The notes below the pieces were generated by a model. That model ran no database searches. It was not told where the DNA came from and saw nothing but the letters and a program-made list of their open reading frames with translations. A stretch of DNA of 64,000 bases from Hysterangium stoloniferum (Eukaryota > Basidiomycota > Agaricomycetes > Hysterangiales > Hysterangiaceae), in NCBI GenBank assembly GCA_015178975.1, contig WHVD01000027.1, positions 1-64,000 on the forward strand, in the 5' to 3' direction. Positions 1,110-53,601 of this stretch are shown piece by piece. The position numbers were made by a program, and so were the translations under genes. Each line of letters starts with the position of its first letter. Within the stretch, counting starts at the first letter, position 1.

Positions 1110-2330
1110 TTGAGCAGTAAATTTTCCGAAACTTCCGATGCCTCTCATTTGACTGTATTGGTCTGCTCTGAATATTTTCAGACATCTCTGGCCTTCGGGC
1201 AACCCTTTGCCTTTCTGGGCTTTTCTGGCCTTTTGGTACCTCTGGTCCCTTTTGGCATGTTCTACTCTTTCAGTCAACTTTGGATTCTTCGGATTCCTTG
1301 GATTTCCGGACTTTCCGGAATCTTTGGACCCTTTGGATTTCAATTACCTGTTGAGTATAATGCTCGTGAAGATCAGTTTAATCTGGCTTTTCAGGCATCT
1401 CTGGCCTTTGGGCACCCATGGCCCTTCTGGGCCTAGCCTTTTCGGCATCTCTGGTCTTTTGGCTTACCACTCTCTCACTTAAACTCGGATTCCATGGTTA
1501 TTTCTGAACTTTCCGGAACCCTCGGAACTTTTGGATTCTTCGGACTTCCAGACTTTCCGGAATTTCCAGACCCTTTGGATCCTACTTATTCGTTGAGTGA
1601 TTGTTTGCCAAGATCAGTTAATCCAGCCTTTCAGGCACTTTTGGCCTTCGGGCAACCCTCAGCCCTTTTCTCGGGCACCCCTGGCCTCTTTTGGCACTCT
1701 TGGCCTTCGGGCAACTCTCGGCCCTTTTGGGCACCTCAAGCCTTTTGGCATATTTGGCCTTTTAGGCATTTATGGCTGTTTTCGGCATGTTCAACACTTT
1801 CACTTAACTTTGGATTCCTCAGATTTCCGGACTTTCCGGAATCCTTGGACCTTTCCGTTCCCAATTATCTGTTGAGTGTTTGCTTGCCAAAAATCAGTTT
1901 AATCCAGCCTTTTCAGGCAAACTTTGGCCTTCGGGCAATCCTAGCCTTTTGGATCCCTGGCCTCTCTTCCGGCCTTTTCAGCCCTTTTGTCCGACTTCAA
2001 ATTCTGTGAATTTTCCGACCTTTCTGGAAACTTCGGACTTTCCAAAACCTTTGGATTTTCGGAATTTCTTGGACTTCCGAAATCCTCAAATTTTCAGGAC
2101 CCTCGGACTTTCCAAAAACCTTGGACTCTCCAAATTTTAACTCTTTATTGAGTTTTCCCTTCTTGCCATGATTGTTTTTATCTTGGTTTTTTTAGCATAT
2201 ATGGCCTTTTGCGCCATTCCAACCCTTTTAGCATACTTGGTCTTTTGGCACCAATGTTTCGACTCAATTTCAGATTTCCGGATTTTCCGACCTCTTCGAA
2301 CTTTTGGAAACTTCGGATTCCGAAAATGCT
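1110..2330. repeat. Degenerate tandem repeat where gag/RT should be
   Basis: Units of about 240-280 bp recur. The anchor TTGAGT, usually followed by TTGCCA and ATCAGTTTAATC, appears at 1351, 1594, 1872 and 2148 (spacings 243, 278, 276). Between anchors are many copies of a short motif of the type TTTCCGGACTTTCCGGAATC. No retroviral domain can be read in any frame; short open frames here are low-complexity translations of the repeat. Similar TTTTCGGACTTTCAGACC-type words occur at 4330-4600, so the array may be an expansion of sequence from the 3' part of the same element. Confidence 0.7.
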
Positions 2331-2363
2331 GTCACCCGGCCCTTCTCCAAATACCTTTCTGCC

Positions 2364-3653
2364 TTCAATATGGTCATTCTGCTTCCGTCCTGGCCGCCTT
2401 GGTGGAAAACCTGACGCTATGACTAGACGATGGGACGTCTATCCTAAAGAGGGGAGTAGCGACTACACCACAGTTAATCTGGATAATTTCAAGCCTATGT
2501 TTTCATCCGAACAACTGTCCGAGTTAATCCGAGCTACTTACCTTATACATCCAGTCATGTGCAGTGTTATCCTTATGGACACCGAAAAATTACATCAAGA
2601 CATACTATCGGCAATTCCATTAGACCCAGTCACCAAAGCACACCTCAATAACCCGTCCGACCCCGATCATTCCCGATGGTCACTCGACCCGCAAGGTTTC
2701 ATTAAACTTGACAATTGCATATATGTTCCGGACTCCGACACTCTCCGACTTCGAGTTTTACAGCATAAACATGACCACCAGATCTCGGGACATTTTCAGT
2801 ATCAATTTACCATTGGACTTATCCAAAGAGAAAATACATGGCCCGGTCTCCGAGATTTTGTCAAGCATTATTGTAAATCATGCACCAACTGTGCACGTTC
2901 CAAATCAAGACGTCACACACCACATGGCCTACTCAACAACTCCCAATACCGGAAAAACCCTGGAATTCAATATCAATGGATTTCATCGAACACCTACCGG
3001 CATCCAACGGCCATACCGCAATTCTCGTTGTTGTGGATCGGCTTACCAAGCAAAGTATTTTCATTCCAACTTATGATACAGTAACATCCATACAGTTGGC
3101 CGAATTGTTCATCACTTATGTATTCTCCAAGCATGGCATTTCCGTTGCATGTCACTTCCGATTGCGGATCCGAGTTCATCTCTCACTTTTTAGGTCACTC
3201 GGAAAAGCACTTGACATGAAACTCCATTTCACTTCCGGCTACCACCCGGAAAGCAATGGCCAAACCGAACGCACTAATCAAACATTGGAACAGTACATCC
3301 GAGTCTATTGCAACTATCAACAAGACAATTGGAAATCACTTCTACCGCTTGCCGAATTCGCATATAACAACATCCCAAATGCTACTACCGGCATTTCGCC
3401 TTTCTTCGCAAATAAAGGCTACAACCCAAACATCGCTATCCATCCGGAATGCGATCTCACTTCAACCTGTGCTCAGGACTTTGTCACAAACCTCAACGAG
3501 CTACACCAAGAACTTCGAAAGAACATCACATCGGCCCATGAACATTACCAACACTCCACAGATAAAAATCGGCTGCCGCCCCCTGAACTCAAGATCGGTG
3601 ACCGAGTATTTGTCAAAACCGAGTTCTTCCAAAAGCCGAGTTCTTCCGAATGA
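2364..3653 (+). pseudogene. Pol remnant: RNase H end, integrase zinc finger and core
   Basis: Reading resumes near 2364 with the RNase H/linker sequence RPGRLGGKPDAMTRRWD. An integrase HHCC zinc-binding module follows at about 2750-2910 (HKHDHQISGH, then CKSCTNC). The integrase core begins at about 2970 (MDFIEHLP with the first Asp) and contains ESNGQTERTNQTLEQYI near 3248-3300. The frame shifts between the zinc finger and the core (around 2930) and again near 3150, where the expected TSD-CGSEF block with the second catalytic Asp is out of frame. This is a dead Ty3/gypsy polymerase fragment. Confidence 0.85.
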
Positions 3654-5635: not shown

Positions 5636-6650
5636 AAATCCATCTCTGCTGAAAAACATTCTTCTATTGTTTCTCTCCTCAATGAGGGGTATTCCCATCA
5701 TCAAATTCAAGCTAGGACTGGCCTGGGGAAGGGTACTATTGGCAGGATCAGTAGGGAGGTAGAGGGGGATAAGGAAAATCATCCTGGTGGCTATCCTTCC
5801 AAGCTTTTCCCTTATGATAAACAGTCAATTATCTGTCAAATCAGCTCTGGGAAGCTTGACAATGCTGTCCAAGCCACCTAATTCATAAATTCCATCATAT
5901 CTACCTCTGTCACTCCTCAGACTGTTAGGAATGTGTTGAAGGAAGCTGGCTTTAGGTCAGAACAAAGAAGAAAGTCCATATGCTCAAGGGGTCTCATCAT
6001 CAGCAATGTCTAAAGTTTGCCCAATACCATGAAAATTGAACTATGGAGGACTGGAAGAGGGTGTTGTGGACTGATAAGACAAAAATCAATAGGATTGGGT
6101 CAGATGGGAAGGTAAATGTTTGGAAGCAACAAGGGGATCCAGTATCATACAGGACCACCACACCAACTGTCAAACATGGAGGGGGGAATAACTTGATGGT
6201 TTGGGGGTGTATGGGCTGGAATGGGGTGGGGAAGCTGATAGAGGTGCAGGGGAATATGGATGCAGTGCAGTATTGTGAGATTTTGGAGGAGGGAGTGGAG
6301 GAGAGCATTGAAAGTTTGGAGATGGCTGAGGATAAATGGTACTTCCAACAGGACAATGATTCAAAACATACCTCAAAAAAGGCAGACCAGTGGTTTTCTG
6401 ACAATAACATCATTTCCATGAAGTGGCTGCCCAATCCCCTGATCTAAATCCCATTGAACACTTCTGGAAACACCTCAAGGCCAAACTCCAACAATTTGAT
6501 ATACCACCCAAAGGAGTACATGAATTATGGGACAGGGTGGCAAAGGAGTGGACTGAAATACCATTAGAGACATGCCAGAAGCTAATAAAAAGCATGCTTA
6601 GGAGGATACAGGCAGTTTTAAAGGCAAAAGTGGGTCATACAAAGTATTAG
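5630..6650 (+). pseudogene. Tc1-A transposase, copy 1
   Basis: The frame opens in LTR-F sequence (ATGACAAAATCC) and continues as a helix-turn-helix Tc1 transposase (SISAEKHSSIVSLLNEGYS). It has a TAA at about 5879, a frameshift near 5955-5965, a TGA near 6039 (a Trp in copy 3) and another frameshift near 6420. The first catalytic Asp is kept (LWTDKTKIN), as are QQDND and SPDLNPIEHFW for the other two acidic residues. The C-terminus ends in GHTKY as in related copies. It is inactive because of the stops. Confidence 0.88.
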
Positions 6651-6878
6651 ATTGTAAAATAATAGAGGGTCAAAAAACTGCCCCAATGAGTGATTATTTT
6701 GTTTGATTTATTGAGCAATAAGTTTTGATTGGAATCACATGATTTCTTAAGTTGGTAGATAGCCAACATGTTCTTGTATATCATGTGAATTCTTCAGAAT
6801 TTTTGCTGATGTCATTCCTTCACACAATATCAATATTTCTAAAATGCACAAACATTGGGGCAGTTTTTTGACCCACTA
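5636..6878 (+). mobile_element. Tc1-A copy 1, 5'-truncated
   Basis: This Tc1/mariner element lacks its left terminal repeat and the first codon of its transposase. The right end (6663-6878) is present, with GGGTCAAAAAACTGCCCC at the inner edge and its inverse at the outer edge. The final base of the terminal repeat is mutated (CCCACTA instead of CCCACTG) and is followed by TA. Confidence 0.85.
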
Positions 6879-28438: not shown

Positions 28439-30042
28439 CAGTGGGTCAAAAAACTGCCCCAATGTTTGTGCATTTTAGAAAGATTGATATTGTGTGAAGG
28501 AATGACATCAGCAAAAATTCTGAAATATTCACATGATATACTAGAACATGTTGGCTATCTACCAACTTAAGAAATCATGTGATTCCAATCAAAACTCATT
28601 GCTCAATAAATCAAACAAAATAATCACTCATTGGGGCAGTTTTTTGACCCTTTATTATTTTACAATCTAATACTTTGTATGACCTCCCTTTGCCTTTAAA
28701 ACTGCCTGTATCCTCCTAGGCATGCTTTCTATTAGCTTCTGGCATATCTCTGGTGGTATTGCAGTCCACTCCTTTGCCACCCTGTCCCATAATTCCTGTA
28801 CTCCTTTGGGTAGTATATCATATTGTTGGAGTTTGGCCTTGAGGTGTTGCCAGAGGTGTTCAATGAGATTTAGATCAGGGGATTGGGCAGGCCACTTCAT
28901 GGGAATGATGTTATTGTCAGATAACCACTGGTCTGCCTTTTTTGAGGTATGTTTTGGATCATTGTCCTGTTGGAAGTACCACTTATCCTCAGCCATCTCC
29001 AAACTTTCAATGCTCTCCTCCACTCCCTCCTCCAAAATCTCACAATACTGCACTGCATCCATGTTCCCCTGCACCTCTATCAGCTTCCCCACCCCATTCC
29101 AGCCCATACACCCCCAAACCATCAAGTTATTCCCCCTCCATGTTTGACAGTTGGTGTGGTGGTCCTGTCTGATACTGGGTCCCCTTGTTGCTTCCAAAAT
29201 ATACCTTCCCATATGACCCAATCCTATTGATTTTTGTCTCATTAGTCCACAACACCCTCTTCCAATCCTCCATAGTCCAATTTCATGGTATTGGGCAAAC
29301 TTTAGACATTGCTGATGATGAGACCCCTTGAGCATAGGGACTTTCTTCTTTGTTGCTGACCTAAAGCCAGCTTCCTTCAACACATTCCTAACAGTCTGAG
29401 GAGTAACAGAGGTGGATATGATGGAATTTATGAATTGGGTAGCTTGGACAGCATTGTCAAGCTTCCCAGAACTGATTTGATGGATAATTGACTGTTTATC
29501 ATAAGGAGAAAGCTTGGAAGAATGGCCACCAGGATGATTTTCCTTATCCTCCTCTACCTCCCTACTGATCCTGCCAATAGTACCCTTCCCCAGGCCATCC
29601 TAGCTTGAATTTGATGATGGGAATACCTCTCATTGAGGAGAGAAACAACAGAAGAATGCTTTTCAGCAGAGATGGATTTCATAGTGGTGGTAAGGAGTCA
29701 AGGAGATGAATGAACAAAGTTCAACATGCCAAATTGATACAAATAAGGTCACATGACATGTTGATGATTCACATGACCTACTCCTACCTTATACTAGTGT
29801 GTAACATTGAAAATCAGAGAAAATAATAGAGGGTCAAAAAACTGCCCTGATGAGTGATTATTTTCTTTGATTTATTGAGCAATGAGTTTTGATTGGAATC
29901 ACATGATTTCTTAAGTTGGTAGATAGCCAACATGTTCTAGTATATCATGTGAATATTTCAGAACTTTTGCTGATGTCATTCCTTCACACAATATCAATCC
30001 TTCTAAAATGCATAAACATTGGGGCAGTTTTTTGACCCACTG
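28439..30042 (-). mobile_element. Tc1-A copy 2, full length (1604 bp)
   Basis: Both ends are present: CAGTGGGTCAAAAAACTGCC at 28439 and its inverse ending at 30042, flanked by TA (28437-28438 and 30043-30044). Each terminal region of about 215 bases also carries an inverted copy of the end motif at its inner edge (near 28635-28655 and 29831-29852). The element encodes a mutated transposase on the minus strand. Confidence 0.92.
28667..29682 (-). pseudogene. Tc1-A transposase, copy 2
   Basis: The start (MKSISAEKHSS at 29682) is intact, but a one-base deletion near 29600 breaks the frame after QARM. The downstream frame 29383-28667 is open for 238 codons and ends in GGHTKY. Within it, about 29285-29150 is read in a shifted frame between two compensating indels, so the WTNETKIN-type block of copy 3 becomes CGLMRQKSIG and the first catalytic Asp is lost. 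QQDNDPKHTS and SPDLNLIEHLW keep the other two acidic residues. An open frame alone would wrongly suggest activity. Confidence 0.88.
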
Positions 30043-33449: not shown

Positions 33450-34590
33450 TTATGCTATAATTTCAAAAGGGCCTAAAAATTTCTCAGCAAGTCTTTTAGA
33501 AGGTTGGGTGGTACAGAAGAATTGAGCTTTTACAAAAACCTGATCACCAATTTTAAAATTAGGAGGTGGGATCCTGTTTTTGTCTGCAGAACATTGATAA
33601 TATTCCTGGGTGGAAGAAATAGCTTTCCGAAGTTCTTGATGTAACTCGTTGAGATCGGTAATTAATTCTTGAACATGGATAGAAGCCAAATCTCATTCAG
33701 AATGTACTGTGAGATTCAGATTATAGCCTTTGTTGGTGAAAAAGGGAGAGAGATGCCAGTAGTTGCGTTCAGAGAGTTATTGTAGGCAAATTCCACGATT
33801 GGAAGAAGGGATTTCCAGTTGTTCTGTTGATAGTTGCAATAGATGTGGAGATATTGTTCCAATGTTTGATTAACACGTTCTGTTTGTCCATCACCTTCCA
33901 GGTGATATCCTGAGGTGAAGTGTAGTTTCATGTCAAGGGCTTTTCCGAGGGCCTAGAAGAAATGGGAGACAAACTTGGAGCCCCGACTGGAAGCCACGCG
34001 AGACGGAACACCATGCCCGGAAAACACGTGAATAATGAAAAGTTCCGCTAATTGTAAGGATGTGATTGTATTGTGAGTGGGTATGAAAATGCCTTGTTTT
34101 GAGAATTGATCCACAACAACTAGAATGGATGTAAAGCCTTCAGAAGTCGGAAGTTGTTCGATAAAATCCATGGAAATTGAGTTCCAGGGTTTTTCCAGTA
34201 TCAGAAGTTGCTTGAGAAGGTTGTACGGCTTATGTCTTGGGTTTTAGAGTGTAAGTAGGTGGTGCATGACTTACAGAACTGGGTTACGAAATCTTGGAGG
34301 TTCGGCCAAGTAAATTCCCTACGGATTAGACCAAGAGTATTGTTAATGCTGTAATGTCTGGAGATTAGATGATCGTGTTTGTACTGAAGTATGCAGAGTC
34401 GGAGATTATTGGAATCTGGAACGTAGATACGTCCATTGAGACGGATAAAACCTTGAGAGTCTTGTGACCATTGGGGTTGGTCGGGATTATTGGGAACTTC
34501 TAGGTGTGGCTTGAGAGCCAGGTCGGAAGTGAGTGCGGAAAGGATATCTTGATGTAATTGCTCAATGTCCATAATCATAATGCTATGCAT
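33450..34590 (-). pseudogene. Integrase of the LTR-I element
   Basis: The zinc-binding module (about 34590-34201) has the two His (HKHDH ... RH) but reads CKSCTTYLHSK, so one zinc Cys is replaced by Tyr. The core starts MDFIEQLP with the first Asp near 34165. The second Asp is missing (SSRGSKFVSHFF). GQTERVNQTLEQYL with the Glu lies near 33880. The C-terminal part (about 33689-33450) ends LAEKFLGPFEIIA, leading to the chromodomain. Frameshifts near 33710 and 33945 split it. It is inactive. Confidence 0.87.
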
Positions 34591-34689
34591 AATTGGATAG
34601 TAGAGGGAAGTCGCTTAAATAGATGCAGAAAGTTGCTGTGTTGTAAAAACTGGTTTCAAGTTATGTGGATTAACAATGGCGTAGTTACT

Positions 34690-36899
34690 TTCCCCTCGTT
34701 AGGATGGACGTCCCATTGTTGAGTCATGGCATCTGGTTTTCCACCAAGATGTCCAGGTCAGAAACAGATAATCATGTTGAAAGTGGAAAGGAATTCGGAC
34801 CAGCGGGCTTACTGGTGGGTCAAAAGTTTAGTGGTAGAAAAATATTCAAGATTTTTGTGATCAGTAACAATGTCAATGGGAGTTGCAGAACCTTCGAGGT
34901 AATGACGCCAATGTTTGAAAGCTTCAAAAATTGCCAAAAGTTCCTTATCATAAATGTCATAGAGTTTGGACACTTTCAGTGTCTGAGAAAGGAATGCAAC
35001 TGGATGAATTTCACTGTTGGAATCTTGAATGGAAAGAATTGTGGCAATTGCATAATTGGAAGCATCGGTTTCCACAATAATCAGAATGTCAGGTTTCCAA
35101 TGAGAAAGAATCAGGGTGGAAGTGAAAGCATTTTTCAAAGTCTGGAAAGCAGAGTGGCATTTGTCGTCAAAGACCCATGGTTGAGACTTACGGGTAAGAC
35201 AAGTAAGCGGTATTGTAATATCTGAGTAATTCCGAATGAAATGATGGTAAAAGTTTGTGAAACCTAAAAATGACTGAATGTCTTTGACTTTCTGTGGTTT
35301 GGGCCAATCATGGACAACTTGAACCTTGGTTTCGTCCATACAGAGACCCTTGGGTCTAATAATGAAACCTAAGTGTTCAATAGAATCCATGTCAAAGTAG
35401 CATTTTTTACCATTGGCAAAAAGACTGTGTTTTTGGAGTCTTTGGAAGAAGACTTCACAGACTTGTTCATCATGAAGAGTGGGATCCTCGGAAAATACCA
35501 AAATGTCATCCAAATAGACTATAACACATACATCAAGCATGTGTCATGAATTGAATTTTACTCAATAAAGTCGAATAAACAATCGAAGAATATTCAACAA
35601 TATCGAATAAAGATGCCTCATTTGACGAAGTATTAATTCGTCCTGTTGATAAAGCGTGAGGCAAAGATAGGACACAGAGGCTCACAAATAAATAAGTTGA
35701 AGAAAGGCTAGGAAAAAGTTTGATGATTATATAATACAGTAATAATATAATATAATACAGGTTTTCTGACTGACTTCCTTCATTCCTATCATTGCCCTTA
35801 TATACTAAATATCATTTACCTATGATGATAATATGATATCAAAGTGAAATCATCAATGACATCAACCTGAGACAAGTTGAAGATATTCAAGATTGTTGAA
35901 GATATTGTTGAAGAATAGTTGAGTCGGAAGTTGAGTCGGAAAGTTGAAGGAATGTCGAAGAAATATTAAATTGAATATTATCAAAATTTGAGTTTGTACA
36001 TTCATGACAGCATGTCAGAAAATATATTGTTAACAAAACGTTGAAAACCGGAAGGGGCGTTGGTAAGGCCAAATGGCATAACCAACCATTCAAAGGATCC
36101 ATAGCGAGTCTGAAAAGCAGTTTTCCATTCATCACCCTTGGCAATTTAGACCAAATGATAGGCATGTTTAAGGTCTATTTTGGTGTAGATCCGAGCTTTC
36201 CATGGGGCATTGAGTAAGTCAGTAATGAGTGGAAGTGGGTACTTATCTTTCTGTGTGATGGAATTTAATCCTCTGAAATCGACACAGAGTTGAAGGGAAT
36301 CATCCTTCTTTCTGATGAAAATGACAGGTGCTCCATACAGAGACTTTGAGGGACAGATAAAACCTATCAACAGATGTTCATCCAAGAACTCCTGAATAGA
36401 TGAAAGTTCCAATTGGGATAACAGGTAAATAGGTCCTAACGGAGGGTTTGAACCAGGCTCAATATCGATTTTTAAGTCGTAGGGCCTACATATGTGGTGC
36501 AAGCCGGTCAGCTTTTTGCTTACTGAAAATATCCATGAAATCATGGTATTTTTTGGGAACTCCTTCCAGGTTGGCTTTTAGCTCGGATAATTCTGGAGTC
36601 GCAAAACGTCCAGATGCTTCATCAACTTTTAAGTTGGTCGAAAAACACTGTGATCTGTCCAGTTTACTCACCCTAACAAATGCTGAAGCATTGATGAGAG
36701 AGATTCTTGGAGGCTCGGAGGTTTCAGTAGAAGCCGGAGGTGCTGTTGAGGCCGAAAAAGCTCTGGCTGGAAAAGATGCTGCAGGAGGAACAGAAGTGTT
36801 GGGAATTCGGAAATTAATACTGCCCAATACCCAGTCAATCAATGGATTATATTGGGTGAGCCAGTTGTATCCAAGAACTACTGAACAGCTAGAGTCCAA
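34690..36899 (-). pseudogene. Reverse transcriptase and RNase H of the LTR-I element, split by solo LTR-F
   Basis: Upstream sequence 36899-36486 includes VVLGYNWLTQYNPLIDW, the usual protease/RT linker. RT proper has SLYGAPVIFIRKKDDSLQLC, CVDFRGLNSIT, TKIDLKHAYH (near 36170) and [20 protein letters not shown]. The solo LTR-F separates FVNNIFSDM from the catalytic YLDDILVFSEDP at about 35510. RNase H follows with VETDASNYAI and SKLYDIYDKELLAIFEAFK. Stops interrupt it near 36150 and behind 34809. It would be a conventional chromovirus RT without these lesions. Confidence 0.9.
35542..36009. repeat. Solo LTR, family F (468 bp), target duplication GCATG
   Basis: The unit begins TGTCATGAA and ends TTCATGACA, with GCATG at 35537-35541 and 36010-36014. 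Its first 121 bases recur reversed at 5515-5635. It is AT-rich and lacks coding sequence. Confidence 0.92.
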
Positions 36900-36904
36900 C
36901 TGTG

Positions 36905-37174
36905 TTATGAAAAAGTAACTGTCTGGGATGTTCCATACGGGAACTGGATAGACATGTCGCAGGCTTGGGTAATTGCCGTATTGCTAGTGCCGTCAAACAG
37001 ATGCAAAGAAATTGCGGGAACAGAATGGAGTTTCAGATTATGTTTCATGGCAAAGGTGGTATCTACAAAACAGTGTGTGGAGCTGGAATCTATCAGAGCT
37101 TGGAACACTACATTTCCAAGAAGGTCAGAGATGAGTTTTACAAATAATGAGTCGGGATTAGAGAGAGCGGACAC
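36905..37174 (-). pseudogene. Aspartic protease of the LTR-I element
   Basis: A 90-codon frame contains FQALIDSSSTHCFVDTTFA, matching the retropepsin active site, where the usual D-S/T-G triad reads DSS. The Gly to Ser change would probably reduce activity. A beta-rich sequence follows (LHLFDGTSNTAI). It is separated by a stop from both gag and RT. Confidence 0.75.
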
Positions 37175-37248
37175 ATTGAGATGGATAATCTTGGAAACAC
37201 GGAGAGAGTCAATGCAACCCTCTGTCCATGCAGATTTTGGAGGGTTGC

Positions 37249-38487
37249 TTACTCTTTTTTTGACTCTGTGGTGGGTTTTTCCTTGGATGTCGTAGTTGTA
37301 GTGGAAGTTGCCATGTAGGCCTTGGAAGAGTTAGACTTAATGGTACAGTCAGAAACCTTGTGTCCACCTTTCCCGCAGAAAAGGCAGAGGTCGTTATCCA
37401 TGCATCGTTGTTTCTCCTTTGGGGTGAGTTTACCGTTGGTGCCCAACAAATGGGAAATGTCAGGTTTGTCAGAAGTTGACTGTTTATCCTTGTTGGATTT
37501 TTTGTCTTTTTTCCAATTGGAATTTGATTTGCCAGTATTAGTGCCAGAGTTGCCAGTGTTATTGCCTGAGTTATTGCCGGAAGACTTGCTAGTTGACACC
37601 TTGTTGTTCTGAGAATGTTCCATCAGATTCTCTCGGGAGACCTTGGCTTTTCATTCCCAATAATGGGCATCGGATGTCTGAGCTTTAATCTGCATGAGTT
37701 GGAGAGTTTTCAGCTTCCCATCTTTGCAGATCTCGTCTTTAAGGCGTGATGGAAGTCCCATATAGAAATGGTGCCTGAGGGCGGAATCGTCCCATCCACA
37801 TCATGTGGTGAGGGTATTGAACTTGATGAGATAATTGGAGACTTGTTGATTGTCCTTCATCTTAAGTGTCATTAATTTATTTTCTGCTTCGCTGGATTGA
37901 TTGTAAGGTCTGAAATTAGTTTCCAGTTCTTCCACAAATGCATCCCAGTCGTCAAGCCATACGGGTGTCTTGTCGGATATTCCGGATAGTCCAGGTTCGA
38001 ACCAATCCTGAGTGGTATCCTTGAGATAAGAGAGCATGAAATTGACTTTTCGACTGTCAGACTTAAATGCAGCAGGTTGATCACGGAAACTGAAACAGCA
38101 TTGGAGAAGGAAATTCTTCAATTTTTTCAGATCCTTGCCGGTAAATGGTTCAGGTTCTTTGACTCTGGTTTGGGATGATTCTTTGCTTTCCTCAGCAGAT
38201 TTCAAATAGTCAGCGAATTTCACAATGGAGTTGACAAACAACAGTTCAGTTGGTTCATCAGGAGATTTCTTTTTCGATGTCACCGGCTGTTCTTCTACTT
38301 CATTGTCGGAAGTGTTGGGAGCGTTGGGATCCTTCGCTGCCTCAGTAACTACCTCAGTAACTTCTTTGACAGAAGCTGATGTTGTCGGCTGATTTAGGGT
38401 TTTGGGTTGGGCAGTATAAAGTTGCAACGGGGATTGAAGTTGAGATGGTCCTTTGGCAGCTTTGCATTTGGGACCCATGATGAGCAA
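37249..38487 (-). pseudogene. Gag of the LTR-I element
   Basis: The N-terminal frame 38487-37801 (start MGPKCKAAKG) contains a retrotransposon gag capsid block (FMLSYLKDTTQDWFEPGL, WDAFVEELETNFRPYN). After a stop near 37800 the sequence continues through a degraded middle to 37623-37249. That part has an Asn/Ser-rich linker and the zinc knuckle CLFCGKGGHKVSDC. This is the normal domain order for chromovirus Gag. Confidence 0.87.
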
Positions 38488-39811: not shown

Positions 39812-41010
39812 TGTTAAGGGGCATGCAGACTCATGGAGGGTTTCTGGAGAAACCCACAGATATTCCAGTAGGACTTGGCTTCAGCTTATAGACTGTATCC
39901 TTGTGAGATTGTGGTGTCCAATTTTAGACAGGCGGATGGAAAACCCAGGGAGTCTGAGTGTAGTTGATTAGGTCAATAGGTTGGAGGTTGATAGGTCGAG
40001 GTTGATAGGTCAGAGGTTGATAGGTCAGAGGTTGATAGATCAGAGGTTGATAGGTCAGAGGTTGATAGATCAGAGGTTGATAGATCAGAGGTTGATAGGT
40101 CAGAGGTTGATAGGTCAGAGGTTGATAGGTCAGAGGTTGATAGGTCAGAGGTTGATAGGTCAGAGGTTGATAGATCAGAGGTTGATAGGTCAGAGGTTGA
40201 TAGGTTGGAGGAGGTTGATAGGTGGTCAGAGGTTGATAGGTTGGAGGAGGTTGATAGGTTGGAGGAGGTTGATAGGTTGGAGGAGGTTGATAGGTTGGAG
40301 GAGGTTGATAGGTTGGAGGAGGTTGATAGGTTGGAGGAGGTTGATAGGTTGGAGGAGGTTGATAGGTTGGAGGAGGTTGATAGGTTGGAGGAGGTTGATA
40401 GGTTGGAGGAGGTTGATAGGTTGGAGGAGGTTGATAGGTTGGAGGAGGTTGATAGGTTGGAGGAGGTTGATAGGTTGGAGGAGGTTGATAGGTTGGAGGA
40501 GGTTGATAGGTTGGAGGAGGTTGATAGGTTGGAGGAGGTTGATAGGTTGGAGGAGGTTGATAGGTTGGAGGAGGTTGATAGGTTGGAGGAGGTTGATAGG
40601 TTGGAGGAGGTTGATAGGTTGGAGGAGGTTGATAGGTTGGAGGAGGTTGATAGGTTGGAGGAGGTTGATAGGTTGGAGGAGGTTGATAGGTTGGAGGAGG
40701 TTGATAGGTTGGAGGAGGTTGATAGGTTGGAGGAGGTTGATAGGTTGGAGGAGGTTGATAGGTTGGAGGAGGTTGATAGGTTGGAGGAGGTTGATAGGTT
40801 GGAGGAGGTTGGAGGAGGTTGATAGGTTGGAGGAGGTTGATAGGTTGGAGGTTGATAGGTTGGAGGTTGATAGGTTGGAGGTTGATAGGTTGGAGGTTGA
40901 TAGGTTGGAGGTTGATAGGTTGGAGGTTGATAGGTTGGAGGTTGATAGGTCAAAAGGTCAAAAGACCAGTTGGAAAGCCTATGGGCTCTAACAAGGTCGA
41001 TAGCATTGTG
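39812..41010 (-). repeat. LTR-B copy containing a huge minisatellite
   Basis: The left part (39812-39960) is reverse LTR-B: it starts TGTTAAGGGGCATG and contains TTGGCTTCAGCTTATAGACT. The right part (about 40950-41010) resumes LTR-B (GAAAGCCTATGGGCTCTAAC). Between them the short CACGACCTACGACC repeat of normal LTR-B has grown to about 1 kb. The right end is lost at the LTR-A boundary. Confidence 0.75.
39965..40955. repeat. Minisatellite of 15- and 18-bp units
   Basis: There are three homogeneous blocks. One has about 13 units of 15 bp (GAGGTTGATAGGTCA, 40000-40200), one has about 34 units of 18 bp (GGAGGAGGTTGATAGGTT, 40235-40845), and one has about 8 units of 15 bp (GGAGGTTGATAGGTT, 40845-40945). 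Because both unit lengths are multiples of three, several frames on both strands are open, but these are not genes. Confidence 0.95.
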
Positions 41011-41180: not shown

Positions 41181-41418
41181 TGTAAGACTAGTATCTGCTG
41201 CAGGTGCAGACAGACACTAGAATGAGTGATGAGGAATAAACCACTACTGTATTGAAATCCACATGTACATAATACATATATGTATACTACTGGAGAACAA
41301 TGGGATGTGAGCAACAATGGGATGTGGACTACAATGGGATGTGGACAACAATAGGATGTGGACAACAGTAGAACTAATTATTACCAAATCACAGTGTAGG
41401 GAGTCCCACTCCCTTACA
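41181..41418. repeat. Short LTR-like unit G (238 bp)
   Basis: This TGTAAG...CTTACA unit interrupts LTR-A and is flanked by ACAT on both sides (4 bases, imperfect). It contains several ACAATGGGATGTGGAC tandem copies at about 41300-41365. One end recurs around the LTR-A solo at 8375-9180. Confidence 0.6.
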
Positions 41419-41940: not shown

Positions 41941-42054
41941 ATTCCTGCTTTTACCTTAGTTAGTATTTTGAGACACTGATAACTAGTATTTAAGTCCAAC
42001 TGTAATGCAGCTACAAAGCAATCAAAATATCAACTCAGAACACTTGTATACAAA

Positions 42055-42567
42055 AGATGACCACCAGAGGACTTAGAAAGGTGGAAATGATGTTTAGAAT
42101 GAAGTCTAGAGATAGTAGCAAAGTTATATCCAGTAGAAACTGAAATATGTTTGGCAGAATGGCCAGCATCAAATAGAGAAAGGATCTCATGCTGGATAGC
42201 AGAGGACAGAGGATGCATAGTTGAAATTAGAAGAATCTTAGCTGTGAGAGCCCTTCTTCTTATACTTTAGCACAGCATGATCACATGACATGTTGAAAAA
42301 TATAAACAAGTGCAAACAATCAACATTGTCATATGATTTTCATGCAAAAGCCTGTCAGTTACAAAAGGTATCCCAATGACCCCTCTCTATTAAAATATTC
42401 ATATTGTTACCATATATGGATATTACATAATGACCTTATGGTTCCTTGGACTATACATGATAGAGCATGTTGGAAAATATTTTGGTGATTGTTATGATTT
42501 TATCTACTGGGGTATAAGCTATACAAGCTGAAACTGCAAAACATTGGATATGTTTTGTAAGTCACTG
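42055..42567 (-). pseudogene. Tc1-B, truncated to its 5' third
   Basis: Only the transposase N-terminus (MHPLSSAIQHEILSLFDAGH, start at 42218) and the terminal region remain. The terminal repeat ends TTTTGTAAGTCACTG at 42567, followed by TA. It belongs to the same family as the copy at 46195-47798. Confidence 0.85.
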
Positions 42568-45837: not shown

Positions 45838-46194
45838 TACCCCTCCAATACCCTCTAAATACTTTCCTACCCCCCCAATACCCCTCCCAATCTCCCCTGT
45901 GATGTATCTAGTATATCTTCACAAAATTACTCTTAATTTTCTGGGATTTATTTCTCTTATTTTATTCTATTTTATTTTGTTTATTATTTCAAGAATTAGG
46001 CTGTTTCCTTTTAACTTTGAATACTCAAAGCTTCGAATGACATCACATTATGTAATTGAAGCCTAGAGCAGTCGAAATATAAATATAATAAAGCCGGGTT
46101 ATCTAATTTCGAGAGGCCAGGTTTTTATTATATTATATTACTACATATATGTGGATTATTATCGCGTGATCACGTGACATCACATGATGACGTA

Positions 46195-47798
46195 CAGTGA
46201 CTTACAAAACGTATCCAATGTTTTGTAGTTTCAGCTTATATATGCTATATCCCAGTAGATAAAATAGTAGAAATCACCAAACTATTTGTGAACATGACCA
46301 ATCATGTATATATTTATATGGTAGAACTATATTATGTAATATCCATATATGGAAACACTATGAATATTTTAATGGAGAGGGTTCATTGGATACGTTTTGT
46401 AACTGACAGGTTCTGGCATGAAAACCATGTTCCTATGTTGATTGTTTGCATTTGTTTATGTTTTTCAACATGTCATGTGATCATTCTATACAACAGTATG
46501 AGTAGAAGGGCTTTCTCAGCTAAGATTCCCTCAATTCTAACTATGCATCCCCTTTCCACTGCTGCCCAGTATGAGATTCTTTCTCTACTTGATGCTGGCC
46601 ATTCTGCCAGACATATTTCAGTTTCTACTGGCTATAGTTATGCTACTATCTCTAGACTTCGTTCTAAACACCATTCCCACCTTTCTAAGTCCTCTGGTGG
46701 TCGTCCTTCCAAACTCTCCACAGCCAACATCCATTTTGCACAACGCCTTATCAGCTCTGGAAAGGCTGATACAGCTGTAGATGCAACAAAGGCACTTTGC
46801 ACTATCACCAACCAGTCACTCAACCCTCAAACAGTGCGTCATGGACTCAAGGCAGCTGGGATGAAGCCTGTGGTAAAGAAGAAAAGGCCTCTTCTTTCTA
46901 AGAGGCATAGGAAGGAGAGGATGGATTTTGCTTTGGCACATCAGGATTGGACTGTGGAGGATTGGAAGAAGGTGGTGTGGTCTGATGAGACCAAAATTAA
47001 TAGGCTGGGGTCAGATGGCAGGAAGTGGGTGTGGAAAAAGGCAGGGGAGGGCTTGAGTGACAGACTGGTTGAGGGAACCCTGAAGTTTGGTGGTGGATCT
47101 TTAATGGTTTGGGGGTGCATGCTGTGGGAGGGGGTTGGGTATGCATACAAGATTGATGGAAGGATGGATGGGGATCTCTACATCCAGATTCTGGAGGATG
47201 ACCTGCAAGCCAGTCTTAAGGACTATGGTAAATCTGCCAATGGTATCATCTTCCAGCAGGACAATGACCCCAAGCATACCTGCAAGAAGGCCCAGAATTG
47301 GTTCCAAGAAAATGGTTTCAGGGTTCTCTCATGGCCAGCACAGTCTCCTGACTTGAATCCCATTGAACACCTATGGAATCACTTGAAGAGGAGGTTGGCA
47401 GGGTATGAGAATGCACCCCAGGGGATGGAAGAGTTGTGGGAGAGGGTGGTGGATGAATGATACAGGATTGATGCAAAGGTGTGTCAGGATTTGATTGAAA
47501 GTATGCCTAGGAGGGTTTCAGATGTATTAAAGGCAAAGGGTGGCTACACTAAGTACTGAATACTAGTAATTTCCTGTCTAAATGTGTCAGTTACAAAACG
47601 TATCCAATGAACCCTCTCCATTGAAATATTCATAGTGTTGCCATATATGGATATTACATAATATAGTTCTACCGTATAAATATATACATGATTGGTCATG
47701 TTCACAAATAGTTTGGTGATTTCTACTATTTTATCTACTGGGATATAGCATATATAAACTGAAACTACAAAACATTGGATACGTTTTGTAAGTCACTG
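46195..47798 (+). mobile_element. Tc1-B, full length (1604 bp)
   Basis: Terminal repeats of about 215 bases begin CAGTGACTTACAAAACGTAT and are flanked by TA (46193-46194 and 47799-47800). As in Tc1-A, an inverted copy of the end motif marks the inner edge of each terminus (about 46384-46408 and 47587-47612). The element lies within LTR-D and encodes a nearly complete transposase. Confidence 0.93.
46543..47559 (+). pseudogene. Tc1-B transposase with one premature stop
   Basis: A 339-codon frame holds two N-terminal helix-turn-helix regions (HISVSTGYSYATISRLRSKH). The DDE triad is complete: WSDETKIN with Asp at 46984-46986, QQDNDPKHT, and SPDLNPIEHLW. The only lesion is TGA at 47458-47460, in a position where Trp is expected (VVDE-W-YRIDAK). 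The frame then continues to LKAKGGYTKY and a TAA-less TGA stop at 47557-47559. A single G to A change could have produced the defect, so this is the best preserved transposase of the window. Confidence 0.9.
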
Positions 47799-50061
47799 TA
47801 TTTACAAATCATCACGAGTAGTTTTTGCAGCCGCCTGGCCATGTTTATTTCCGTTTCAGCCACCCAGCTTATTTTGCTTCCACTCTCGGCCATCCTGGGT
47901 TTATTTTCTGACTCAACCGGTTCAGATCTTCGGTTCAGATCTTTGAGTCGGGTGATAGCTATGACATCATAGCGGAATTATAGAACCTTTAGAAGCTTCT
48001 AATAATTTCCTAATTAGTTATTTAGATATTATTAAGCAAAACTCTCTACTTGTATAAAAGAAGGCCTAAATCACTGAATAAAACAATCTATTTTACTACT
48101 ATTAACAGCACCAGCTCAAAGCTTATCTAATCATCCTAAGGACAAAAATAGCCTTAGTCTGATATCTAACTGCAAGCACCTACACTTGCAGCATCTTAAA
48201 CTCTTTGTCAGAACTCTTGAACTTAGCTAATTCATCTAAGTTTCCTCAGCTTCCCGGAAAACCTTTAGGCTTACTAATCACCTAAGTAAATCTAAATTCT
48301 CATTACTGAAATCCCTGCCCATTTAGGTTATTCAAGAGCCCATTTTAACAGCACAGTTAATTGATCTTTAAACAAACGCTTGGATATTCGACTCTCAGAC
48401 AATCTCTCTATTTATAAATTATTTAACAGCTTGTTAAATCTTTATAAATAGTAAACTAAAAGGCTACAAGAAAGTGAAGGCTTACAACAAGTTTCCGCCA
48501 ACTTATTGCGCATACATTCAGCTCCCAAACCTTTATTCTCAAAGAGAACTTAACTTTCGTAGAGCACGTCACTACAAGTTCATCTGAATTTGTCAAGAGA
48601 CCAAACAAATATTGACTTTAGTTGTTTAAGCTTAATAGTGCAGCTAATTAATCTATCAGTATTTAAATTACTGGACCTTTATTTATTTATTTCTTGAATC
48701 CCTTGCCATGTCAATGTTTGTTAATTATTTGAGAGAGTAAATAGCCGGATACCTTACACCCCCCCCAATACCCCTCCCAATACCTCTCCAATACCCCCCA
48801 ATACCTTCCAAATACCTCTCCAATACCCCCAATCCTCCTCCCATCTCCTCCCAATCTCCCCAATAACTTCCTAATACCTCCCCAATACCTCTCCAACATC
48901 CCAATCTCCCCCCAATACCTCCCAAATACCTCTCCAATACCCCAATCTCCCCCCAATACCTCCCAAATACCTCTCCAATACTCCCAATCTCCCCCCAATA
49001 CCTCCCCAATCCTTCTCCCATCTCCTCCCAATCTCCCCAATACCCCCCTAATACTCCTCAAATATCCTCCCATCTCCTCCCATCTCCACCCAATACCACC
49101 CAAATCTCCCCCCATCTCCCCCCAATACCCCCAAATCTCCTTCTAAATCACCCCCCATCACCCCCATCACCCCCAATACCCCCCAAATCTCCTTCCAAAT
49201 CACCCCCCATCACCCCCATCACCCCCAATACCCTCCAAATCTTCTCCCAAATCATCCCCTATCACCCCCCAAATCTTCTCCCAAATCTCCCCATCTCCCC
49301 CCAATACCTCCCAAATCACCCCCAATCACCCCCAATACCCCCCAAATCACCCCCCAATCACCTCCCCATCTCCCCCAAATCACCCTCCATCACCCCCAAT
49401 CACCTCCCATCTCCCCAAATTACCCTCCCATCACCCCCAATCACCCCCAATACCCCCCAAATCACCCTCCCATCACCCCCAATCACCCCCAATACCCCCA
49501 AATCACCCCCAATCACCCTCCCATCACCCCCAATCACCCTCCCATCTCCCCCAAATCACCCTCCCATCTCCCCAATCACCCCAATACCCCCCAAATCACC
49601 CCCAAATCACCCCCAAATCACCCCAAATCACCCCCCAAATCACCCCCAAATCACCCCCAAATCACCCCAAATCACCCCCAAATCACCCCCCAATACCCCC
49701 CAATACCCCCCAATCACCCCTCAATACCCCCCCTAAATCTCTTCAAATCTCCCCCAATACCCCCATTTCCCCCTACCCCTAAATCCCCTCACCCCCTAAA
49801 TCCCCTCCCATTTCCCCTCCCCTACCCTCCAAATCTCCCTCCCATCTCCCCAATACCTCCCAAATCTCCCTACCCCCAAATCCCCTCCCATCTCCTCCCA
49901 ATACCCTCCAATACCCCCAATACCCCCAAATACCCCTCCCATCTCTCCCCCAATACCCCCAATATCCCCCAAATTCCCCTCCCATCTCTCCCATCTCTCC
50001 CCCCAATATCCCCCAATATCCCCCAAATTCCCCTTCCATCTCTCCCCCCAATACCCCCCAC

Positions 50062-51487: not shown

Positions 51488-51804
51488 TTACCTTCCTTCA
51501 ATTAGAGATGTGGAAGGAAATTGTGCCTTTGGAGATCCTTCAACTACTTATGATGTCTAGGAGACCATTAGTACTGTTTGGAAGAAGGATGGTGAGGATG
51601 GAATATGGACATACTCAGGAGCAATGTCACTGCAGTACTTGGAACACATATATACCTGGCCAAGGCAGTAATATTCCATGCTGACATCACTTCTACCAAC
51701 AACAACAATGTGACTTACAGAATGCTATAATGTTCATAAACACCTTGGCTAGTGGGCAATGTCTTCAATTGGTTGGACAGCATGGACAAGATACTGTATA
51801 TATA
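51488..51804. other. Unassigned interval
   Basis: No gene or repeat partner is recognised between solo LTR-B and Tc1-A copy 3. Confidence 0.4.
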
Positions 51805-51806
51805 TA

Positions 51807-53413
51807 CAGTGGGTCAAAAAACTGCCCCAATGTTTGTGCATTTTAGAAAGATTGATACTGTGTGAAGGAATGACATCAGCGAAAATTCTGAAAAATTCAC
51901 ATGATATACTAGAACATGTTGGCTATCTACCAACTTCAGAAATCATGTGATTCCAATCAAAACTCATTGCTTAATAAATCAAACAAAATAATCACTCATT
52001 GGGGCAGTTTTTTGACCCTCTATTATTTTCTCTGATTTTCAATATTACACACCAGTATAAGGTAGGAGTGGATTATATGAATCATGAACATGTCATGTGA
52101 CCTTATTTGTATCAATTTGGCATGCTGAACTTTGTTCATTCATCTCCTTGACTCCTTACCACCACTATGAAATCTATCTCTGCAGAAAAGCATTCTTCTG
52201 TTATTTTTCTCCTCAATGAGGGGTATTCCCAGTGTCAAATTCAAGCTAGGACTGGTCTGGGAAAGGGTACTATTGGCAGGATCAGTAGGGAGGTAGAGGG
52301 GGATAAGGAAAATCATCCTGGTGGCCATTCTTCCAAGCTTTCCCCTTATGATAAACAGTCAATTATCCATTAAATCAGCTCTGGGAAGCTTGACAATGCT
52401 GTCCAAGCCACCCAATTTATAAATTCCATCATATCTACCTCTGTCACTCCTCAGACTGTTAGGAATGTGTTGAAGGAAGCTGGCTTTAGGTCAGCAACAA
52501 AGAAGAAAGTCCCTATGTTCAAGGGGTCTCATCATCAGCAACGTCTAAAGTTTGCCCAATACCATGAAAATTGGACTATGGAGGACTGGAAGAGGGTGTT
52601 GTGGACTAATGAGACAAAAATCAATAGGATTGGGTCAGATGGGAAGGTATATGTTTGGAAGCAACAAGGGGAACCAGTATCAGACAGGACCACCACACCA
52701 ACTATCAAACATGGAGGGGGGAATAACTTGATGGTTTGGGGGTGTATGGGCTGGAACGGGGTGGGGAAGCTGATAGAGGTGCAGAAGAACATGTATACAG
52801 TGCAGTATTATGAGATTTTGGAGAAGGGAGTAGAGGAGAGCATTGAAAGTTTGGAGATGGCTGAGGATAAGTGGTACTTCCAACAGGACAATGATCCAAA
52901 ACATACCTCAAAAAAGGCAGACCAGTGGTTATCTGACAATAACATCATTCCCATGAATTGGTCTGCCCAATCCCCTGATCTAAATCCCATTGAACGCCTC
53001 TGGCAACACCTCAAGGCCAAACTCCAACAATATGACATATCACCCAAAGGAGTACATAAATTATGGGACAGGGTGGCAAAGGAGTGGACTGAAATACCAC
53101 CAGAGACATGTCAGAAGCTAATAGAAAGCATGCCTAGGAGGATACAGGCAGTTTTAAAGGCAAAAAGGGGTCATCAAAGTATTAGATTGTAAAATAATAG
53201 AGGGTCAAAAAACTGCCCCAATGAGTGATTATTTTGTTTGATTTATTGAGCAATAAGTTTCGATTGGAATCACATGATTTCTTAAGTTGGTAAATAGCCA
53301 ACATGTGCTAGTATATCATGTGAATTTTTCAGAAATTTTGCTGATGTCATTCCTTCACACAATATCAATCTTTCTAAAATGCACAAACATTGGGGCAGTT
53401 TTTTGACCCACTG
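51807..53413 (+). mobile_element. Tc1-A copy 3, full length (1607 bp)
   Basis: The ends CAGTGGGTCAAAAAACTGCC (51807) and the inverse ending at 53413 are flanked by TA (51805-51806 and 53414-53415). Inner inverted copies of the end motif lie at about 51996-52020 and 53199-53221. The transposase is on the plus strand. Confidence 0.93.
52167..53192 (+). pseudogene. Tc1-A transposase, copy 3
   Basis: The frame starts MKSISAEKHSS and is continuous except for TAA at 52371-52373 (Gln codon in relatives, C to T). The first catalytic position reads Asn (WTNETKIN, AAT at 52608-52610) where copy 1 has Asp. QQDNDPKHTS and SPDLNPIERLW keep the other acidic residues. A one-base deletion near 53173 changes the last residues from GHTKY to GHQSIRL. 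It is inactive on two counts. Confidence 0.9.
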
Positions 53414-53601
53414 TATGCTCAGATATTGCAAAATGTACCTAAATGACATTGCCATTGCTATCTCTAGAAATTTTGAAACTTTACAGCTGAAATGGAACTA
53501 TCTCATTTTTAATTATATAACAGAGGATTGTTTCTAAATACCATATTGGCAAATCAGCTTGGAACAATGAAAAAACTGGCAAAATAAAATGAGTAAAGAA
53601 T

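Follow-up and report, generated by a model that had tools for sequence, protein, structure and literature searches.

An inverted inner copy of the end motif in the long terminal repeats of a Tc1 transposon clade from Hysterangium stoloniferum

Two Tc1 elements in a 64,000-nucleotide stretch of the Hysterangium stoloniferum genome (contig WHVD01000027.1, positions 1 to 64,000; here called the window) raise the question of why a transposon terminus should contain a second copy of its own end motif pointing the opposite way. Element A (46195-47798) and element B (51807-53413) have terminal inverted repeats (TIRs) of ~215 to 220 bp each, and their arms are 96% complementary, both in A (46193-46423 versus 47570-47800) and in B (51804-52029 versus 53191-53416). 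A preliminary description of the window had placed the end motif at the outer edge of each terminus and, at the inner edge, a second copy in inverted orientation. This layout was confirmed for every terminus of A and B, and the coordinates given for it were right. The claim that the inner site is a copy of the end motif held for the core repeat but not for the tip (CAGT) and the adjoining TA, both of which are absent from the inner copies of A and B. The features of the two elements, and of their relatives in the window, are as follows.

46195..46408, plus strand: left terminal inverted repeat of A, 214 bp, flanked by TA
46195..46220, plus strand: left outer motif of A, including the CAGT tip
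46384..46407, minus strand: left inner motif of A, an inverted core without the CAGT tip and without TA
47585..47798, minus strand: right terminal inverted repeat of A
47586..47609, plus strand: right inner motif of A, inverted relative to its outer motif
47773..47798, minus strand: right outer motif of A, including the CAGT tip, with TA next to it
51807..52029, plus strand: left terminal inverted repeat of B
51808-51844: left outer motif of B
51985..52021, minus strand: left inner motif of B, inverted
53191..53413, minus strand: right terminal inverted repeat of B
53199..53235, plus strand: right inner motif of B, inverted
53376-53412: right outer motif of B
28439..30042, minus strand: a further complete B element showing this layout, with inner motifs that match at 20 and 22 of 22
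5636..6877, plus strand: partial copy of B whose right end survives, with an inverted inner motif matching at 22 of 22
42053..42567, minus strand: fragment of an A-like element, ~84% identical to A, with one end and an inner motif matching at 17 of 22

The window also contains other repetitive DNA. At 40088-40941 an 18-bp unit is repeated ~50 times with 95% matches, and this array can be read through in several frames of either strand; a second array, with a 17-bp unit, lies at 41291-41367. By eye, frames at 2209-3653 and 34201-38487 resemble pieces of LTR retrotransposon reverse transcriptase, integrase, and gag.

To place the two elements, we examined their coding regions.

46498..47460, plus strand: transposase frame of A, 320 aa from ATG to TGA, with HTH_Tnp_Tc3_2 and DDE_3 domains and DD34E spacing
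52467..53192, plus strand: longest open stretch of B transposase coding sequence, 241 aa, with DDE_3 above the cut-off and a piece of HTH_Tnp_Tc3_2 below it

DDE_3 thus scores above the cut-off in both elements and HTH_Tnp_Tc3_2 in A. The A frame starts ~90 bp after the left inner site, and its product seems to be C-terminally shortened, since most of its relatives have at least 338 aa. A structural model of the A transposase, of moderate quality (mean pLDDT, 75.7; pTM, 0.51), shows two three-helix HTH units (helices within residues 21-58 and 75-119) followed by a DDE fold. The solved chain nearest to the A transposase is the catalytic domain of Sleeping Beauty SB100X (E = 1.4e-50), and the top Foldseek matches for the model are 5cr4 and Mos1 paired-end complexes. 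With a DDE_3 domain, two HTH units, and TA plus CAGT at the tips, A and B belong to the Tc1 (DD34E) group of the Tc1/mariner superfamily. Proteins resembling the A transposase number 7044, mostly on short contigs. Scans of prokaryote genomes and viral contigs returned either IS630-type relatives, whose best segments are 24 to 51% identical, or no match at all, and no second eukaryotic element.

To determine how well the inner motif is kept among independent copies, we searched the 111-Mb assembly. Fetching by likeness to the left terminus of A gave 30 loci, which represent 27 distinct elements, three of them viewed from both ends. TA adjoins the element in all 60 end views (30 views of the 27 elements), and an unchanged inner 23-mer is present in 45 of the 60. 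The weakest inner motifs belong to L006, one end of which has lost a single base of the motif, and to L028 (21 of 23). The preliminary description had named lack of conservation of the inner motif among independent copies as a finding that would refute its reading; the motif turned out to be conserved. Genome-wide, the exact outer-to-inner terminus of A occurs 216 times (111 + 105), against none for a reversed control pattern. The exact outer tip of A occurs 295 times. The 79 exact tips not followed by an exact inner copy at the spacing expected (295 versus 216) may stem from mutation of the inner copy, from truncation of the end, or from other causes, and could reveal whether elements without an inner site still moved. 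One A copy (L002/L008, G000:C263:30245-31846) is inserted at a TA in a terminal repeat belonging to another A-like element. Recent activity of A is suggested by this nesting and by the 27 copies that are flanked by TA at both ends.

To determine how broadly the layout is distributed, we surveyed 55 loci, comprising 5 in the window and 50 from a DDE_3 search of the genome. This search listed 150 matches among 1664 candidates; the 50 loci comprise 30 given as loci and 20 hand-picked from the other 120 so as to avoid obvious A copies. Eleven loci (L031-L036, L038-L041, and L043) were set aside: tblastn with the A transposase gave no match in them, and their fetched flanks contained no TIR or ends. 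They form a separate group that includes the best-scoring DDE_3 matches of the genome among those listed. The remaining 44 loci are referred to here as the clade.

In 41 of the 44 clade loci, at least one terminus carries an inverted inner copy matching the outer motif at no fewer than 16 of 22 positions. Counting L078, in which the copy scores only 15 of 22 because it is shifted, the number is 42. The 27 two-ended loci, whose selection required TA and CAG/CAA tips, carry such a copy (at least 16 of 22) in 48 of their 54 ends, and 26 of them do so in at least one end, L078 being the 27th. The six ends below this threshold are the 3′ ends of L045, L053, and L066, both ends of L078, and the 5′ end of L080. 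The other 17 clade loci are incomplete, missing one end or both. A single end survives in 15 of them and carries an inverted copy of at least 17 of 22; L072 and L073 have no end and showed nothing above chance. A scan of the 27 two-ended loci for direct inner repeats gave best matches of 10 to 14 of 22. A direct match of 22 of 22 on the upstream side of L070 was rejected, as it falls in an unrelated repeated stretch outside any terminus. The inverted layout is more general than A and B alone.

We then compared outer and inner motifs across the clade. Grouping the two-ended elements at 80% DNA identity over 500 bp yields nine families, whose transposases are 43 to 68% identical to one another and show DD34E spacing in all nine representatives. 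Over bp 9-26 of the motif, the best inverted match in the nine representatives is 16 to 18 of 18, compared with maxima of 12 to 15 of 18 in 500 shuffles per representative; the best direct match over the same positions is 9 to 12 of 18, the level expected by chance. The motif varies between families, and within each family the outer and inner copies are identical at bp 11-26 (9/9). The mean outer-inner match over bp 9-26 is 17.6 of 18 within families versus 12.1 of 18 between families, the inner copy of a family's own termini is strictly the best fit in 9/9 families, and none of 200000 permutations reached the observed sum. Because the inner site was found through its similarity to the outer motif, this comparison carries a risk of circularity, which is limited by the fact that the outer motif of each family was searched in the same way against the termini of all other families. 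Such parallel change of the two copies, seen in all nine families, suggests a function for the reversed inner site. All nine belong to a single clade of a single genome and so speak for long conservation of one design, not for nine origins; the flipped orientation itself may have been inherited once, by accident.

The tip and the spacing behave differently from the core. Agreement between outer and inner copies drops to 1/9 families at bp 1, 2/9 at bp 2, 5/9 at bp 3, and 4/9 at bp 4, and among the 48 scored ends neither CAGT nor a preceding TA was found at an inner copy (0/48 for each). The spacer between outer and inner motif is 163 bp long in 5/9 families and 161, 164, 166, and 166 bp in the others. 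Its sequence is A+T-rich (25 to 40% G+C) and nearly saturated for change, with 0.53 identity between families versus 0.48 for shuffles. Strict helical phasing cannot be claimed, because the 6-bp range of spacing exceeds half a helical turn. The preliminary description had argued from two divergent families that the shared layout is functional; with motif co-variation and a fixed spacing, the layout indeed behaves as if selected.

These data also bear on the possibility that the likeness of outer and inner copies arose within each family by recent duplication or gene conversion, and not through selection for binding. Near-perfect matching within families would fit such an origin, as would the clear homogenization of left and right TIRs seen in the complementary arms of A and B. 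However, the inner copies occupy the same position in all nine families while the spacers around them are nearly saturated, which makes repeated independent duplication unlikely. Conversion, for its part, would have had to end before the tip every time, given how rarely bp 1 and 2 agree. We therefore regard this origin as very unlikely.

The inverted layout had led to a further proposal in the preliminary description, namely that each ~215-bp terminus is a potential MITE that could move alone. A related possibility is that the whole element arose when two such units came to enclose a transposase gene as a composite. Each terminus really is bounded by inverted motifs. Nevertheless, neither TA nor CAGT is present at the inner copy of any scored end, and the exact tip-to-tip unit of ~215 bp expected for family A occurs nowhere in the genome, whereas the outer-to-inner pattern, serving as positive control, gave its 216 matches. 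No lone unit was present among the 100 listed of these 216 exact A termini. Facing pairs within 5 kb, with spans of 1161 to 3265 bp, account for 68 of the 100. Of the other 32, 31 were fetched, and all extend beyond the inner motif into the interior of the element; the last is L006, already known as a two-ended element. Four unpaired termini keep little interior (~30 bp in L104 and 81 to 122 bp in L087, L103, and L108), but they stop beyond the inner motif and are thus truncated copies, not units. For family A, then, as far as exact patterns and the 100 listed of 216 termini extend, we reject the solitary terminus as a MITE, there being no TA-flanked unit with two cleavable tips. The search that the preliminary description had recommended, for solitary ~215-bp units with TA duplications, thus came out against its own proposal for the exact family A termini that were covered. 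We consider it extremely improbable that a terminus moves alone or that the element is a composite in this sense; a very old composite origin, with the inner tips lost since, may be envisaged.

We favor the reading, to which we assign a probability of about 80%, that the inner copy is a non-cleavable docking site for the transposase, like the inner repeat of Sleeping Beauty but flipped. In Sleeping Beauty, according to the excerpted text of the source, core recognition by the PAI subdomain takes place at inner and outer repeats alike, and RED contacts DNA at the outer repeat only; the inner repeats are the tighter binding sites, and cleavage occurs at the outer repeats alone (PMC7827188). The kept core and the lost tip and TA of the clade's inner copies parallel this division between PAI and RED, which is why we take the inner copy to be bound and uncut. 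Each terminus would accordingly hold two putative transposase sites in opposite orientation with 161 to 166 bp between them. The outer site, which combines the recognition core with the TA|CAGT tip, would be the place of cutting. The inner site retains the core (bp 11-26) without the tip, so that transposase could bind there but, for want of the tip, not cut. Docking at the inner site would probably load transposase and aid the pairing of ends, a role ascribed in Sleeping Beauty to the inner direct repeat.

A rival role for the inner motif is regulatory: transposase or a host factor bound there would act as a repressor of the transposase promoter (autoregulation), and the motif would not contribute to the pairing of ends. 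The short distance between the left inner site and the A frame, ~90 bp, would suit an operator. The right terminus, however, needs no promoter and keeps an equally conserved inner site, an objection tempered by the fact that the two repeats, being TIRs, are maintained as similar sequences. A fixed spacing of 161 to 166 bp to the outer site would also be unexpected for a promoter operator. A purely regulatory site is therefore, in our judgment, improbable.

If the inner copy is a docking site, its flipped orientation has a geometric consequence, since it relates the outer and inner sites of one end by a two-fold axis. This pair of sites lies about 180 bp apart, and such symmetry means that a symmetric transposase dimer could bridge both sites across the A+T-rich DNA between them as a loop. 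A differently arranged dimer, as the preliminary description had envisaged, may therefore occur. A more far-reaching proposal gives the clade a transpososome geometry of its own: a dimer would first close each end outer-to-inner, in a mock synapsis that cannot be cut, and an exchange of partners would then produce the cleavable outer-outer pair. We regard this as tentative and rather unlikely. If it were true, the flipped layout would act as a built-in safety catch, with a topology unlike that of the direct-repeat checkpoint of Sleeping Beauty, kept through nine families.

Tc1 elements with long TIRs are described as having direct repeats at each end, and models of end pairing rest on that arrangement. 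A large clade with many young copies in which one site is reversed is a natural control for the role of orientation in end pairing. The nine motif pairs make it possible to test how the DNA-binding domain and its site change jointly, and the clade may supply new vector backbones with other regulation.

Several known systems share parts of the design. piggyBac combines short terminal repeats with subterminal repeats in inverted orientation, and it belongs to another superfamily, with a TTAA target and asymmetric ends. The Tc3 element of Caenorhabditis elegans has, unlike the clade, a TIR of 462 bp, and a second transposase binding site was reportedly located ~180 bp inside it by Colloms et al. 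in 1994. Two HTH regions and an AT-hook-like linker of the Tc3 transposase bind the terminal repeat, as stated in the excerpts of PMC2170065. TRT elements carry a 23-bp subterminal inverted repeat on each side, and fungal TRT elements have TIRs of >100 bp; they are DD37E elements, whereas the clade is DD34E, and the available excerpts describe their subterminal repeats as a left-to-right pairing, so that this comparison is one of descriptions without TIR sequence (PMC5630946). Bari of Drosophila resembles the clade in being Tc1-type, with ends of ~250 bp and several 18-bp transposase sites, but has three sites per end, which the accessible portion of the source calls direct repeats (PMC4877112). 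The same text ascribes Bari-related MITEs, with one site at each of two ends, to internal deletion, and so not to a single terminus moving alone (PMC4877112).

Descriptions of fungal Tc1 elements with long TIRs make no mention of inner motifs in the excerpts available. Our literature search, in which subscription papers were thinly covered, found no description of an inverted inner site in Tc1 elements, and we present it as new with the reservation that an earlier description is possible.

The closest comparison is with the IR/DR elements represented by Sleeping Beauty. As far as the excerpted source goes, they share with the A/B clade a DD34E Tc1 transposase, TIRs of ~220 bp, and a TA target (PMC7827188). 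Sleeping Beauty has an outer cleavable and an inner non-cleavable site at each end, and the clade shows the same two-motif plan in its sequence; in Sleeping Beauty the outer repeats exceed the inner ones by 2 bp in length (PMC7827188), whereas the inner copies of the clade lack the whole tip. By the features that define IR/DR elements, the clade has long TIRs that contain both outer and inner motifs, as sequence motifs, and departs from them in lacking the direct-repeat orientation. The sites of one end are direct repeats in Sleeping Beauty (PMC7827188) and inverted in all scored cases in the clade, so that the motifs read > < ... > < along the plus strand here, versus > > ... < <.
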